From: Rhodoferax sp.
GTDB taxonomy: Bacteria; Pseudomonadota; Gammaproteobacteria; Burkholderiales; Burkholderiaceae_C
Assembly (NCBI RefSeq): GCF_012927445.1
Contig: NZ_JABBPD010000004.1
Location: 434,001 to 498,000 of the forward strand
Reading direction: 5' to 3'
DNA length: 64,000 nt
Below are positions 1-5,727 of this stretch, in pieces. Within the stretch, counting starts at the first letter, position 1. Every line of letters begins with the position of its first letter. The notes under the pieces are model-generated. The model saw only the letters and a program-made list of their open reading frames with translations, did not search any database and had not been told where the DNA came from. Both the position numbers and the translations under genes were made by a program.

Positions 1-205
1 ACAGAACTGGCGGTCAACGCTGCCGTGGACGAAGACGAAGTTAGTAATGAACAAAGCGTCCTTCAGGCAACTGCTTGCCATCGTCGACGAGGTGCAGATC
101 GGCTGCTCTGCGGCAAACACTTGATTTACATGGGAATCATTGAAACGTCACTTGGGGCATTTTGCTACTCTTCGCGACACAGCAAATCTATCTTCGCCTC
201 ATTTT
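1..205. other. Window edge, no supported gene
   Basis: I see no convincing gene in the first 205 bases. A plus-strand frame is open from base 2 to a stop at 122-124, and other short frames exist, but none has a start, ribosome site or recognisable motif. It may be the end of a gene or mobile element that continues to the left. The 3' end of the minus-strand cassette begins at 206. Confidence 0.3.
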
Positions 206-1162
206 CTAATTTTTCGTGATCTTCGGTCCAATGTAAAAAACCCTCAATTTCGAACGAAGTGGTAATGGCCATTGAAAATGAATACGGTACTGAGGTGTCT
301 TAATCTTTCCATGCCATGAACAAAAAACGTGTTCGCCTTCATGGTTTTGCTGGGGAAAACTCATTTCATCTCGAAAGGCCTTTTTGTTAGTTTCTGATTC
401 ATCAGTGAACCATGCCTTTGCGCCAGCAAAGTGCTTCGCTATCAGTTCATGATTTCTTGCTGAATGACTTCCGTCCTCATTGAGACAACTCACAAACTCT
501 TGCAATACGGTTAGAAGCGCAAATACTCGTTCAACAACATAGTTGCTAAAAGGTTCTTTTCGCAACGAATCGACAGACTGGGGCGAAAAAACCAAATTAT
601 CAAAGCGCCCTTGCGCCTGTTCTAGCATTTGCACCCAGTTTACGGGTGCAGGAACAATCGCGTGCGTGCTTTGGCATAGCGTATTCGTATCCCAGATGTT
701 GGGGACATGCACTGTACCGAGAGGGGCTTCCGGCAATCCATGTTCAACATCGATAGGCGTGTAATCAAAACCACCTCCAGCGAAGCTGAAGCTTGAAGCA
801 TGCCGACCGGCGAGTTGACTTCGCGCAGCTTCGCCGATGCCCAAGTCGGTCACGTCGGCTCCGTTGAGTTCAAAATAATCGTCTTGGTTGAACTCACGGA
901 TGTCTTCCCAGAACGGCCCGTATTTCGTAAGCCACGCGAGTACCAATCGAACCGGTATGTTGCTTGGTTGAGACTTTACTGCCTCGCGGAAATCCATGGT
1001 GGGTGTCACGGGACGGGTGTGAAGTTCTCGCGAACAAAACAATTTCTGCTCAAGTTCGGGTAGCCTCCTGCGCGCTTGCATCAGTGCTTTTAGATCTACC
1101 AAAAAAGCTGTTGCGTCAATGTATTGACCGCTAAGGGATGAATCGTTGACGTACCAAGTCAT
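206..1162 (-). CDS. Unrecognised protein, third gene of DUF262/AAA cassette
   Basis: A 318-residue protein that I cannot assign to a named family. It has no signal peptide or membrane segment and looks soluble. The C-terminal 45 residues (about 274-318) are the most family-like part: a Cys-Ser-Trp-His-Gly cluster followed by YRIHFQWP and a terminal FYIGPKIT stretch, in a strand-rich pattern. The gene begins 3 bases after the stop of the ATPase gene and shares its strand, so the two are probably translated from one message. Its place beside an ATPase and a DUF262 protein suggests it is the effector or an accessory subunit of the same system. That role is inferred only from context. Codon use is more AT-rich than in the housekeeping genes to the right, consistent with acquisition. 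Confidence 0.7.
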   Translation of the reverse strand: MTWYVNDSSLSGQYIDATAFLVDLKALMQARRRLPELEQKLFCSRELHTRPVTPTMDFREAVKSQPSNIPVRLVLAWLTKYGPFWEDIREFNQDDYFELNGADVTDLGIGEAARSQLAGRHASSFSFAGGGFDYTPIDVEHGLPEAPLGTVHVPNIWDTNTLCQSTHAIVPAPVNWVQMLEQAQGRFDNLVFSPQSVDSLRKEPFSNYVVERVFALLTVLQEFVSCLNEDGSHSARNHELIAKHFAGAKAWFTDESETNKKAFRDEMSFPQQNHEGEHVFCSWHGKIKTPQYRIHFQWPLPLRSKLRVFYIGPKITKN

Positions 1163-1165
1163 CTC

Positions 1166-2338
1166 CTATTCCCATCCGGCCAGAGCAGCCAAATCACGTT
1201 CAGCTTGGTCAAAGAAACCAAGCGGCCACTCACTGAGGCCTCCGTTGGCATCAATTTTCGGGGACGTTACGTGTGCTGGGTCAGCGGGGAAGCGGGGACG
1301 AGAATTGAAAAAATGAATGGTGATATCTGTTGGCCGTAAATCTCCACGGCTTACCGCTAGGCGTACGCCGTTGAGTACATGATCGCTATGTGTTTCGATA
1401 ATGACCTGTACCCCGGATTTTGCGAGCATTGCGAGAAAGCTCCCCATGAGGGACTGCCCCATTGGATGTAAATGTGCTTCTGGGCTATCGATTACGAGCA
1501 TCTGTCCGGATTTGGCCATGAGCCCCGCAACCAAGATGGGAAAAGCATAGGTCAAGCCATATCCAATATTGGCTGGCCGCCTCCATTCATCCGCACCATG
1601 GTTGCGTAGTTCTAGTCGAACCAATGACGTTCCGCTGATGCGTTGGGCATTGGCTTCGGCACCAGGGAAAAGCGAGGATGCCCACGCATTGAACTGTTTG
1701 CGCAAGCTAGGTGCTGTTTCGTTAGGGTGCCAACGCGAGGGTTCAATATCTTCATCCATGCACTTCTCAAACCACCAAGCCGCATACTCTCCTTGCGACC
1801 CGACATCAGCCCATATGGGTTCAGATGCATCGGGCGCAGGGAAAACTTCGGTCGTTCCGATTCGCAGAGCAGATATGAAAACCATCTCCGCCAAATCGAC
1901 AGGTATCTCATGCAACTTTGGTGGGACATTCAGCGGCAGGAGATTTTCCAAACACTGATCAAGAACTAAATGCTCCCCACTTTCTTGCCCAATGCACCAC
2001 TGAATTTTTGTGATCGGCAATACGTGCCCGGTGCGTCGACCGTCTGCTGACATCAACCAGTCTACCCGTGACTCACTTCTTTCGATCCCAATCTGCAATT
2101 CAGACTCACCACCGTGGCGAATCACATCGCCGGGCGACCCAAGGCGAACGAGTGATCCGTTCAACGGAACGAGTGGAAATCGCCCGCCTCCCCGCAATGC
2201 CTGGGCCAAAAGCAAAATCGCTTGAAGAGTTGTAGATTTTCCTGCTGCATTGAACCCGGTCAATAGGGTCATTGGAGCCAGTGGTAGCGACAGCTCTTCG
2301 AAGCATTTGAAGTCTTTGATGTGAAGGCAATTAATCAT
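1166..2338 (-). CDS. AAA/ABC-type ATPase, DUF3696-like
   Basis: A 390-residue ATPase of the SMC/ABC-like AAA group. Visible motifs are Walker A GFNAAGKST (residues 28-36), Walker B MLVIDSPEAHLHP (about 280-292) and a switch-like ETHSDH (from 315). Between them lies a long helical insert. The last 30 residues, with GLSEWPLGFFDQ, match the C-terminal signature I associate with DUF3696 ATPases. The start ATG overlaps the DUF262 stop codon by 4 bases (ATGA), indicating translational coupling. Such ATPases often act as sensor or regulatory subunits in anti-phage systems (family knowledge). No nuclease domain such as TOPRIM is visible, so any effector would have to be one of the neighbours. Function here is inferred. 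Confidence 0.85.
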   Translation of the reverse strand: MINCLHIKDFKCFEELSLPLAPMTLLTGFNAAGKSTTLQAILLLAQALRGGGRFPLVPLNGSLVRLGSPGDVIRHGGESELQIGIERSESRVDWLMSADGRRTGHVLPITKIQWCIGQESGEHLVLDQCLENLLPLNVPPKLHEIPVDLAEMVFISALRIGTTEVFPAPDASEPIWADVGSQGEYAAWWFEKCMDEDIEPSRWHPNETAPSLRKQFNAWASSLFPGAEANAQRISGTSLVRLELRNHGADEWRRPANIGYGLTYAFPILVAGLMAKSGQMLVIDSPEAHLHPMGQSLMGSFLAMLAKSGVQVIIETHSDHVLNGVRLAVSRGDLRPTDITIHFFNSRPRFPADPAHVTSPKIDANGGLSEWPLGFFDQAERDLAALAGWE

Positions 2339-3471
2339 GATAGGACTCCAGCAATCGCCGTACGTGCCATCTCAAAACGTTTTTTTACCTGGCGTGTACT
2401 GTTCGTCGAGTAGGTAATAGCGTGATTGAAACTTTCATCTTGAATCAGTGAGGAAAATACTTCGCGCAATGCGTCAGAATTTTCCTTGATGACTTCTTTA
2501 CTTATGCTGGCAAATAGTACCGAGCAAACGTCAAATAGTGCGATATTTAGAACCGTACGTGCGACGAAATCTTCGCCGTGCACTAGGGACTTGCGAAAGG
2601 CGTGTTCCTGAAATAGAAAACGGTTTGCCTGCATAGAGTGCAAAAAATCAGAATGGAGTCGATCTAAATTGACGCTTCCCTTGTGCATTTTCTCCAGCGC
2701 ACGCGCAAGGAAAGCGTCCATGTCGCCACCAACATAATTTTCCTCACCAAGGAGATAGAAGCCGCAAAATCGATTGATAGCTTCACGATCACGCATCGAC
2801 TTTCGGTCAAGAGACCTGCCACTCGCGGCCAGAAACTCAGTGCTTTTGCTGGCAGTTTTGAGCCATTGGGTTGCTGGACCAGTGAAGAGGCAGTTTCGCA
2901 TCTGCTGCCGGGTTAACGAGACCCCGCTATTTACTCGTTCAAAAATATCAAGCTTGGCACGTTCAGGTGCTTTTGCATCAAGAATATAGAGTGTAAGTTG
3001 CGTATCCTCGATGCGCTCTTGCAAGAGCAATGAAAGTTCAGAGAATTTTTTACCGTCAAGCGGATGGGCTGGTTGATCGTCTCCAGCTTTCAGAAACAAA
3101 CCGAATTCATCCGCAAGGAATCGTTTAAAGGTGCTCAATCGCTGTAAGCCGTCAACCACCACGATGCGCCCGTCCTTTGCTTCCGCCACATAAAAAACTG
3201 GAAGTGGAATCCGCATAACGCAAGATTCGATTAATCGGGATTGCTTATCCACGGGCCATACAAAATCACGCTGAAAATCTGGATCAAGTTGATAGCGGCC
3301 TGCATTTATGCGTTTAACAACCTCTTGAACAGTACGAGGCTCAGTTCGAACGAAAACCGCATCCAATGGGTAATCGCCACCCCATCCCTCGGATTGTGTA
3401 TTGTCGAGCCCTTCGGGCTCTTCGTCTTCGCTCGATTGCGGCACTTCGGCAATTGAAGAGTTCGTACCCAT
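2335..3471 (-). CDS. DUF262 (GmrSD N-terminal-like) protein
   Basis: A 378-residue protein with a DUF262 domain. The signature appears as QLDPDFQRDFVWP (residues 61-73) followed by the nucleotide-binding loop DGLQRLSTFK (107-116; the usual form is DGQQRLTT). DUF262 has a ParB/Srx-like fold and is the NTPase half of GmrSD, BrxU and SspE restriction proteins. Those usually carry a C-terminal DUF1524 HNH nuclease. Here the C-terminal 200 residues show no HNH or His-Cys cluster, so the protein appears to lack the nuclease half. The N-terminal 35 residues are acidic and probably disordered. It is the first gene of the three-gene cassette, with a likely promoter at 3495-3524. A role in defence against foreign DNA is inferred. 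Confidence 0.85.
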   Translation of the reverse strand: MGTNSSIAEVPQSSEDEEPEGLDNTQSEGWGGDYPLDAVFVRTEPRTVQEVVKRINAGRYQLDPDFQRDFVWPVDKQSRLIESCVMRIPLPVFYVAEAKDGRIVVVDGLQRLSTFKRFLADEFGLFLKAGDDQPAHPLDGKKFSELSLLLQERIEDTQLTLYILDAKAPERAKLDIFERVNSGVSLTRQQMRNCLFTGPATQWLKTASKSTEFLAASGRSLDRKSMRDREAINRFCGFYLLGEENYVGGDMDAFLARALEKMHKGSVNLDRLHSDFLHSMQANRFLFQEHAFRKSLVHGEDFVARTVLNIALFDVCSVLFASISKEVIKENSDALREVFSSLIQDESFNHAITYSTNSTRQVKKRFEMARTAIAGVLS

Positions 3472-3494
3472 GAAACCTCACGGAAAAATTAACG

Positions 3495-3524
3495 AGCATA
3501 CACCCCAACCAGCGTGATCTTCAA
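3495..3524 (-). promoter_or_regulatory. Candidate sigma70 promoter of the three-gene cassette
   Basis: On the minus strand TTGAAG (3519-3524) is followed after 18 bases by TATGCT (3495-3500), close to the -35/-10 consensus. It lies about 25 bases upstream of the DUF262 start codon, and no other promoter is evident before the two downstream genes. Confidence 0.5.
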
Positions 3525-3857
3525 TCATGGTTGGTGGCGCAAGAATGCCGGTGAAGGAAGCCAAGGACGTAGCCCGTAGCGGATTTCCCTGCGCCTGCCT
3601 CACTCAGAACGGTTTGTATGGAGGCGTCGCTGGCGCCTTTGCGCTTTTGCTCGCGATCCCTGACGCGCGGACTTGGCTAGCTGTTCGGCGCCGTCCGGCG
3701 ACGGGTTGAAGTGAGCACGTCCGCCCAAGATCTGGCATGGAGGAACCACGTCTACGACCGTCGCTGGTCGGGGGGGGGCAGGAGTCATTGAAATCGTTGC
3801 CACATTGCCAAACCCATGATGGTCACGCCATGGTCATCCCCGCGGTCTCAAATTTAT
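3525..3857. other. Non-coding junction right of the islet
   Basis: About 330 bases with only short open frames, none with a credible start or recognisable product, and a run of nine G at 3770-3778. It separates the AT-richer defence-like cassette from speD. It may be decayed sequence at the islet boundary; I could not identify a parent gene. Confidence 0.35.
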
Positions 3858-3914
3858 ATGAAATAAGCCTGTAGCGCCCGCCAAATAGGCGCAGATAGTT
3901 ACAAAATCAAGAGC
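3858..3914 (+). repeat. Dispersed TAGC-box/palindrome element, intergenic copy
   Basis: Degenerate copy of the repeat family found across the window. It has an AGCCTGTAGCGCCCG box, then AGGCGCAGATAG and an AT-rich palindrome remnant. It lies just downstream of the speD stop codon. Confidence 0.5.
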
Positions 3915-3953
3915 AAAAATTTACCCTTTCACACTCGATAACGCCATGAGACG

Positions 3954-4343
3954 CTACGGCACCACCGAGGTAATCTGTCCCCGTTGCAAGGCATGTCGCT
4001 CCACATGAGCGGGGTGAAACAAACCGGTCATGGCGGTCATGAGTACGTGGGCTTTGGCGGCATTGTCACCTCCAAAGTTGCACACATAAACGTCAAGTGT
4101 CACGGCGTTTTGTTCAGGCCAGGTGTGAACGCACAGGTGCGATTCAGCCAGCAACACGGTGGCCGTGACGCCGCCAGGGCCTTGCGCGGTGGCCGGGAAG
4201 GCATGAAACACATGGGCGACCGCCTGCAGACCCGCGCCCGCAACCGCCTGCCGGCAATGTTCACCCAAAAGAGCGCTGTCCGTCAGCCATTGGGGCTCAC
4301 AATGACAGTCGTGAAGATCGGCGGTAAGGTGCAGTCCTTGCAT
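3954..4343 (-). CDS. speD: S-adenosylmethionine decarboxylase proenzyme
   Basis: A 129-residue prokaryotic AdoMet decarboxylase that supplies decarboxylated AdoMet for spermidine synthesis. The family hallmark is GGVTATVLLAESHLCVHTWPE (about residues 57-77): the proenzyme self-cleaves at Glu-Ser, and Ser68 becomes the pyruvoyl cofactor. The following His and the Cys near residue 88 (YVCNFGG) fit the catalytic His/Cys pair. Length is normal for the small bacterial class. It is divergent from the small gene at 4386, with only 42 bases between them, and a fragment of the dispersed palindrome lies in that gap. No spermidine synthase gene is adjacent. Confidence 0.9.
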   Translation of the reverse strand: MQGLHLTADLHDCHCEPQWLTDSALLGEHCRQAVAGAGLQAVAHVFHAFPATAQGPGGVTATVLLAESHLCVHTWPEQNAVTLDVYVCNFGGDNAAKAHVLMTAMTGLFHPAHVERHALQRGQITSVVP

Positions 4344-4352
4344 GGGTCAAAC

Positions 4353-4371
4353 TATAGCTATCAATTTATTT
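4353..4371. repeat. Palindrome-core fragment of the dispersed element
   Basis: An ATAGCTATCAATTTATT stretch in the divergent gap between speD and the small gene at 4386 resembles the TAGCTATTAATTTAATAGC core of the dispersed family. The CTAGCCCCCG box is absent. Confidence 0.35.
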
Positions 4372-4385
4372 TCAGGAACACCACT

Positions 4386-4613
4386 ATGTCACGTCAAAGT
4401 ATTTGGGCCACCAAGGTCGCTGCCCTGGTTCAAGGGGGCAATAGCGAAGCCGCCATTGCCCAGATCAAAGTGGCGCCTACCGTGAAAGATCTGAAAGATC
4501 TGCGCGCCCTGTTGATCAGTAGCAAGCTGCTCGCGCGTCACCCCAACGTCGATGACGCCACCAGCGACATGATCGTGGCCCTGTCGTCGCCCCGGCTGCA
4601 CCGTTCGCCTTGA
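4386..4613 (+). CDS. Small conserved-looking protein of unknown function
   Basis: A 75-residue helical, soluble protein (begins MSRQSIWATK) with no motif I recognise. I chose ATG 4386 because an AGGA ribosome site lies about 9 bases upstream; the longer in-frame extension runs antisense through speD and is unlikely to be coding. It converges on nagZ, whose stop lies 10 bases downstream, and diverges from speD. No function can be proposed. Confidence 0.6.
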   Translation: MSRQSIWATKVAALVQGGNSEAAIAQIKVAPTVKDLKDLRALLISSKLLARHPNVDDATSDMIVALSSPRLHRSP

Positions 4614-4623
4614 AACTGACCGC

Positions 4624-5727
4624 TCAAGGAATCAGGCTGAGCGCGTGCATGTAGTCCGGCTGCACCATCAGGGCATCCCATTCGGTGGCGGGCGTGCGCG
4701 GCAACAGCGCGCGGCGGCGCTCTTCGCCGGCCTCCTGCGGCTGCCAGCTACCTTTGAGCTGCGCCTCGGTCAGCCCCTCAATCAACTCATCCACCGCCCG
4801 GCCGCCCAGCTCACTGTTGGGCAAGCACTGGTTGCATAGCAACACCATGTCGCAGCCCGCATTCAGCGCCGCCACGGCCGCCTGGGTGTAGCTCACTTGC
4901 TGGCCGTCAAGCAAGCGGGCGCCGGCCATCGACAGGTCATCGCTGAAAATGGCGCCGCCAAAACCGAGCTGGCCACGCAGGATGTCGTTCAGCCACTTGG
5001 CCGAGAAACCGGCCGGCCGCGTATCCACCTTGGGGTAGATCACGTGCGCCGGCATGACGCTGCTGAGCGTGGTGTTGAGCCAGCCGTAGGGCGCGGCGTC
5101 CTCATTCAAAATCGCTTTCAGGCTGCGCTTGTCGACCGGAATGGCGGTGTGCGAATCGGCCTTGACGAAGCCATGGCCGGGAAAGTGTTTGCCGCAGTTG
5201 GCCATGCCGCTTTGCAGCAGGCCGTGCATCAGGCTCTTCGCCAGCAGGCTGACCATGCGCGGGTCGCGGGCAAAGGCGCGGTCGCCAATGACGCCACTCT
5301 CGCCAAAATCAAGGTCCAGCACCGGGGTGAAGCTGAAGTCCACGCCGCAGGCCCGCAACTCGGCCCCCAGCACATAACCGCAGGCCGAAGCCGCGTTGGT
5401 GGCCTGCATGGCGCCAGCGCCCTCGCCTGCCTTGCCCCCTTTTCCGTCCTGCAGCCACATCTCGCCCAAGGCCCGCATCGGCGGCAGGTGGGTGAAACCA
5501 TCGGTCTTGAAGCGCTGCACATGGCCGCCTTCGTGGTCGACGCAGATCAGCAAATCGCGGCGTACTTTCTTGATCTGCAGGCAAAGCTGGGTCAGCTGCG
5601 CCCGGTCCTGCCAGTTACGGGCAAACAGGATGATGCCGCCGACCAGCGGGTGCTTCAGGCGTTGGCGATCAATTTTGCTCAGGCTCAAGCCGGCGACGTC
5701 GATGATGAGGGGCGCGTGTTGGGTCAT
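4624..5727 (-). CDS. nagZ: Beta-N-acetylhexosaminidase
   Basis: A 367-residue family 3 glycoside hydrolase that removes N-acetylglucosamine from muropeptides in cytosolic peptidoglycan recycling. Visible NagZ signatures are CVDHEGGHVQRF near the N-terminus, the GKHFPGHG loop with its catalytic His, and the IFSDDLSMAG segment with the catalytic Asp. I chose ATG 5727 over the GTG four codons upstream, because MTQHAPLIIDV matches the usual NagZ beginning. It follows acpS on the same strand, separated by a copy of the dispersed repeat. Confidence 0.95.
   Translation of the reverse strand: MTQHAPLIIDVAGLSLSKIDRQRLKHPLVGGIILFARNWQDRAQLTQLCLQIKKVRRDLLICVDHEGGHVQRFKTDGFTHLPPMRALGEMWLQDGKGGKAGEGAGAMQATNAASACGYVLGAELRACGVDFSFTPVLDLDFGESGVIGDRAFARDPRMVSLLAKSLMHGLLQSGMANCGKHFPGHGFVKADSHTAIPVDKRSLKAILNEDAAPYGWLNTTLSSVMPAHVIYPKVDTRPAGFSAKWLNDILRGQLGFGGAIFSDDLSMAGARLLDGQQVSYTQAAVAALNAGCDMVLLCNQCLPNSELGGRAVDELIEGLTEAQLKGSWQPQEAGEERRRALLPRTPATEWDALMVQPDYMHALSLIP

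Follow-up and report, generated by a model that had tools for sequence, protein, structure and literature searches.

The left end of the window, by which we mean the whole 64,000-nucleotide stretch of DNA analysed here (positions 434,001 to 498,000 of Rhodoferax sp. contig NZ_JABBPD010000004.1), carries a cassette of three minus-strand genes coding for a DUF262 protein, a P-loop ATPase and a two-domain protein. We refer to them as nsnA, nsnB and nsnC, names that we take to be those of the Menshen system (NsnABC). The open reading frames (ORFs) confirm the layout described in the initial annotation of this stretch, which had been made from its letters alone: nsnA and nsnB overlap by 4 bases and nsnB and nsnC are separated by a 3-base gap. 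The features of the locus are as follows.

2335..3471, minus strand: nsnA, 378 amino acids (aa), DUF262/GmrSD_N predicted NTPase
1166..2338, minus strand: nsnB, 390 aa, ABC/OLD-type P-loop ATPase with a C-terminal DUF3696
206..1162, minus strand: nsnC, 318 aa, N-terminal domain (~1–185) and RelE/YoeB-like (BECR) domain (186–318), predicted ribonuclease (RNase) effector
209..607, minus strand: segment of nsnC coding for the C-terminal RelE/YoeB-like domain (residues 186–318)
1..205: right part of the left flank, non-coding; the whole flank is 391 bp long and starts outside the window, at G000:C2:433815
3472..3953: right flank, from nsnA to a speD-like gene, non-coding, 482 bp

All three proteins were matched by PADLOC models: NsnA by PDLC03877 (386.0 bits, residues 28–376), NsnB by PDLC03878 (344.7 bits, residues 1–388) and NsnC by PDLC03896 (381.6 bits, residues 1–317). 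With the NsnA, NsnB and NsnC models all represented by adjacent genes on one strand, in the order A-B-C, the Rhodoferax cassette is, as judged from its sequence, a complete Menshen system with a predicted anti-phage function. Menshen was reportedly named by Millman and colleagues in 2022. The cassette is thus an ordinary member of an already named system and not a new one. The initial annotation had proposed an uncharacterised, unnamed system, adding that a match to a named one would overturn the proposal; PADLOC names all three genes, which rules out a new system, and a similar operon appeared in print in 2025 as ptuXYZ. The value of this result lies in closing a candidate, the system itself not being new. 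According to the available text of a review (PMC10952713), Menshen includes a DUF262 protein and a predicted OLD nuclease, and resistance was lost when the DUF262 gene was mutated or deleted.

The search of genomes for the three genes side by side that the initial annotation had suggested confirmed their association. A scan of named genomes with an alignment of 24 NsnC sequences resulted in 63 loci, at which genes were called by profiles built from those loci. NsnA, NsnB and NsnC are adjacent and in this order at 47 of the 63. Three loci have B beside C without an adjacent intact A-B (L058 and L087, at contig end; L066, with a split B), 11 match NsnC but have no B next to it (cut contigs, fragments, L099, L107 and the chimera L096), and two contain no NsnC ORF. 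At L099 a frame-split NsnC lies behind A and B, and at L107 all three genes are broken. Pairwise divergences of the three proteins correlate (r 0.80–0.86 for the window and 44 of the 47 loci, two loci with truncated NsnA and one duplicate being left out), although such a correlation would also be expected from the shared descent of the genomes. Across the order, NsnB (E 1e-60) was found in at least 5 of 300 genomes, the window's included; six candidates were scored per genome, which makes this a lower bound. Each of the four other NsnB loci has an adjacent NsnA and a third gene matching NsnC models at 90–317 bits. NsnA-like proteins (E 1e-20) are present in 33 of the 299 genomes of the bacterial family; the window's own locus aside, only 4 of 35 NsnA-like loci have an adjacent NsnB. 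Since 31 of the 35, a few of them close to contig ends, are without it, the presence of a DUF262 gene is not diagnostic by itself. The earlier view of the three genes as one defence cassette agrees with the PADLOC matches, the conserved order, the correlated divergence and the signs of horizontal acquisition described below.

In NsnA, the motif VDGLQR occupies residues 106–111, of which D107, G108, Q110 and R111 are kept in all 54 aligned sequences. GmrSD_N (78 bits) was the sole Pfam family matched at E 1 and the DUF1524 nuclease domain was not found at this threshold; a type IV restriction enzyme of the GmrSD kind was rejected on these grounds. The Pfam families matched by NsnB above cut-off are AAA_15, AAA_21, DUF3696 and DUF2813. 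NsnB possesses a Walker A motif, a signature-like NIGYGLT and an H-loop, the Walker A lysine K34 being present in 53 of 53 ungapped rows and H317 in 54 of 54. Its Walker B motif (residues 284–287) reads [DE]-[NS]-P-E: residue 285 is either N (30 of 55 sequences) or S (25), P286 is found in all 55 and E287 in 54 (A once), where a few rows of the NsnA and NsnB motif alignments are fragments or near-duplicates. ABC ATPases usually carry the Walker B glutamate at the position of this N or S. Lacking the usual catalytic glutamate position, NsnB may, to go by the alignment, hydrolyse nucleotide slowly or make use of E287. The OLD-type matches of NsnB (Pfam DUF2813, PADLOC Old, PDB 6p74) are limited to the ATPase motifs, and no TOPRIM domain was matched in the window NsnB by Pfam.

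Two further observations concern NsnA-like and DUF262 proteins. Over residues 43–374 NsnA matches phrog_2598 (209 bits), a family of phage proteins without an assigned function, which points to NsnA-like proteins in phages or prophages. Another DUF262 protein, 639 aa long (G000:C4:614475-615392; L048:9202-11121; GmrSD_N, 99.5 bits), is encoded in the same genome, with no NsnB match beside it.

NsnC had been called unknown, which holds for Pfam, NCBIfam and PHROGs, where it had no match, but not in view of its PADLOC match and its structural likeness. A sequence search of the PDB gave nothing useful. In the AlphaFold model of NsnC (mean predicted local distance difference test score 94.0), residues 186–318 resemble the RelE/YoeB fold by structural comparison of models, and a RelE/YoeB-like (BECR) fold of the C-terminus is supported by two separately built models. 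RNase activity is predicted from this fold. The domain contains H, K, R, H and Y residues that do not vary, and the mean top-residue fraction is 0.589 in the C-terminal part versus 0.505 in the N-terminal part, reaching 0.681 in the last 45 residues. No RelE family was among the listed Pfam matches of 113 and 92 relatives (E 0.5), the 11 families outside the list for the 113 ranking below single-member matches at E 0.17. Against viral structures the best NsnC match had an E of 0.39, and structural comparison gave no name for the N-terminal domain (~1–185). In a second NsnC subfamily (alignment A3; L113:11624-12589) the N-terminal acidic residues D6, E7 and D86 are invariant in 92 sequences; by way of speculation, the N-terminal domain of this subfamily, if PIN-like, might be active.

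The C-terminal part of NsnC also occurs in other proteins. A 618-aa protein at L096:3949-5805 combines a HEC-07 match at 72–276 with the C-terminal half of NsnC at 468–618. Searching with its C-terminal domain resulted in four proteins (P0230–P0233), the query's own cluster included, and all four match HEC-07 models in their front part and NsnC PDLC03896 in the part that follows; the search covered proteins of ~340–1080 aa, a range outside which ordinary NsnC falls. Conversely, G228, which belongs to the same family, contains an NsnA-NsnB pair whose third gene (L112:11635-12489) carries Pfam DUF4160 at its C-terminus in place of the RelE-like motif and matches the NsnC models only marginally (16.8 bits). 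The HEC-07 fusions and the replacement in G228 suggest, at the level of sequence, an exchange of effector modules between candidate defence systems. We tentatively put forward, at somewhat less than even chances, that this NsnC subfamily ends in a portable BECR RNase effector of 130–150 residues, swapped between defence systems (Menshen and HEC-07). If true, a DUF262 switch, an ABC ATPase and a swappable RNA-cutting toxin would make up one general plug-in design, and the domain shared with HEC-07-like proteins would help to explain effector trading among candidate systems. The name HEC-07 was not found in a literature search pairing it with PADLOC. Domain findings on NsnC may already be contained in Li et al. 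2025 (NAR gkaf357), whose title refers to domain polymorphism of Menshen and which is cited in the available text of PMC12839542 and PMC12704722.

At eight loci with partial NsnC matches the ORFs were read by eye. A 95-aa ORF at L106:9956-10243 contains the C-terminal end of NsnC only and is probably a remnant; the large ORF beside it is presumably Tn3-type transposase-like. Other NsnC remnants have neighbouring ORFs that resemble defence genes by eye, PglZ-like and DUF1016-like ones at L092:5105-8001 and OLD-like ATPase and UvrD-like ones at L098:8813-11592.

Inferring activity, target and trigger, we consider it probable that NsnA and NsnB act as a nucleotide-dependent sensor or switch and NsnC as a released RNase. 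NsnA (DUF262 NTPase) and NsnB (ABC/OLD-type ATPase) would together form the switch, which would keep NsnC inactive until a phage signal triggers it and sets NsnC free. As a RelE/YoeB-type RNase, NsnC would then cut mRNA at the ribosome or another RNA, and the cleavage would lead to growth arrest of the infected cell, that is, to abortive infection.

An unlikely, though the best surviving, alternative is that the cassette is a Menshen system in which killing is performed by NsnB, through an OLD-type nuclease activity, or by NsnA, whereas NsnC is a specificity or adaptor subunit. The term predicted OLD nuclease for the partner in the available text of PMC10952713 agrees with this, as do the OLD-type matches of NsnB over its ATPase motifs; the window NsnB, however, is without a TOPRIM match. 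Of the three proteins NsnC diverges most (mean pairwise identity 35%, versus 51% for NsnA and 42% for NsnB) and 15 different PADLOC NsnC models were matched across the proteins examined, both of which would be expected of a sensor too, but it is the C-terminal part of NsnC that is the better conserved, and this part is found on HEC-07-like proteins as well. The evidence favours a RelE/YoeB-like effector domain in NsnC, for which H284, K286, R293 and H295 can be named as concrete residues, over an OLD nuclease in NsnB. That the domain is instead a ParE-like toxin poisoning gyrase is considerably less probable still: the catalytic residues of BECR RNases are absent from ParE toxins (available text of PMC11980606), whereas H, K, R, H and Y are invariant in the NsnC domain. 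Finally, that the three genes are unrelated chance neighbours has next to no probability and, despite the many NsnA-like loci without an adjacent NsnB, is refuted: the unit is conserved at NsnC loci and at all four other NsnB loci of the order, the divergences correlate, and the genes overlap or sit 3 bases apart.

The cassette is located between a flavin amine oxidase-like gene (match ending at G000:C2:433811) and a speD-like gene (starting at 437957), 4,145 bp apart, both named by eye from their sequences. In a genome of the same genus (G299) the matches to the flank genes are 2 bp apart, representing an empty site. Seven other genomes of the genus have both flank genes on one contig; five hold other genes between them, and NsnA, NsnB and NsnC were not found there in any of the seven. 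The interval (L003:15815-19953; L158-L166) is variable in Rhodoferax, measuring 2 bp or about 0.8, 5, 11 and 19 kb in relatives. One genome grouped in the same genus encodes a protein labelled as Rhodoferax lithotrophicus, which by that grouping places the window in Rhodoferax. A separate Menshen with a different NsnC lies at another site in R. lithotrophicus (G121). As the initial annotation had pointed out, the cassette is more AT-rich than the DNA to its right: the G+C content is 0.492 for 206–3471 versus 0.604 for 3954–64000, all 284 overlapping segments of equal length right of the cassette are higher (minimum 0.551), and third-position G+C is 0.44–0.51 in the cassette genes versus 0.65–0.86 in seven neighbouring genes. 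On the basis of this atypical composition and the empty site in a relative, the cassette was probably acquired by horizontal transfer. The adjoining 16 kb on the left and 5 kb on the right look, by eye, like chemotaxis, metabolic and housekeeping genes; no other defence genes were seen there by eye, no PADLOC scan of these genes having been made, and the cassette looks like a solitary acquired one.

The degenerate junction noted earlier is real insofar as non-coding DNA lies on both sides, but the only repeats between the two flanks are imperfect and 12–13 bases long (families D2 and D6), a class often due to chance. No further copy of the left flank exists in the genome, the next match being 22 bases long (E 0.016). 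In the right flank, the final ~100 bp are similar to short segments at other places in the genome, the best of them 52 bases at 79% (E 4e-5), and no plasmid match was obtained for this flank. A recent transposon with clear bounding repeats was rejected given these short imperfect repeats, the lack of long flank copies elsewhere in the genome and the lack of a plasmid match to the right flank. The promoter-like site could not be upheld: a consensus scan of 1–4700 gave 4 sites versus 3.8 ± 1.8 from shuffles, none of them just upstream of nsnA. NsnB (E 1e-30) is present in 21 of 72,556 plasmid records, two predicted to be conjugative and five mobilizable. Two of these plasmids were inspected and carry DUF262, DUF3696 and hypothetical genes in succession; in the second, the third gene matches NsnC 85–318. 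NsnC had no match in 50,697 phage records (E 1e-5), and the idea that the cassette is common in phages was rejected for this reason, though NsnA matches phrog_2598.

Among known systems, the type IV restriction enzymes GmrSD, BrxU and SspE likewise have a DUF262 domain with the DGxQR motif, but NsnA is without a DUF1524 match and the cassette has separate ATPase and RelE-like genes. With the type II toxins RelE, YoeB and YafQ the likeness lies in the predicted fold of NsnC 186–318 and its conserved basic residues; no sequence-level match was seen for the domain, and NsnC differs in its fused 185-residue N-terminal domain and in having two NTPase partners instead of a small antitoxin. The PADLOC candidate HEC-07 is linked to NsnC by the C-terminal domain shared with four HEC-07-like proteins, which are longer and, at L096, the one locus read, have no NsnA or NsnB match. 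The window trio corresponds to Menshen itself over almost the full length of each protein and in the customary gene order. Nothing was found that sets it apart except that its NsnB had no TOPRIM match, in contrast to the 'OLD nuclease' of the available text of PMC10952713; its NsnC falls into one of many subfamilies, the best model being PDLC03896. The closest operon under another name is ptuXYZ (Gerdes 2025). For its 17 operons the available text of PMC11980606 gives a DUF262 protein, an ATPase resembling PtuA and a third protein of two domains, the N-terminal one PIN-like without catalytic residues and the C-terminal one with a BECR fold. The window trio shares the DUF262 protein, the PtuA-like ATPase and the C-terminal BECR domain of the third protein (BECR by model comparison only), and sequence matches of NsnB in the PDB include PtuA 8ee4 (E 0.0024). 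The word Menshen does not occur in the main text of PMC11980606. From these descriptions, rather than from sequence, ptuXYZ and Menshen appear to be two names for one kind of operon, and the present work joins two published names for what is seemingly one kind of trio.
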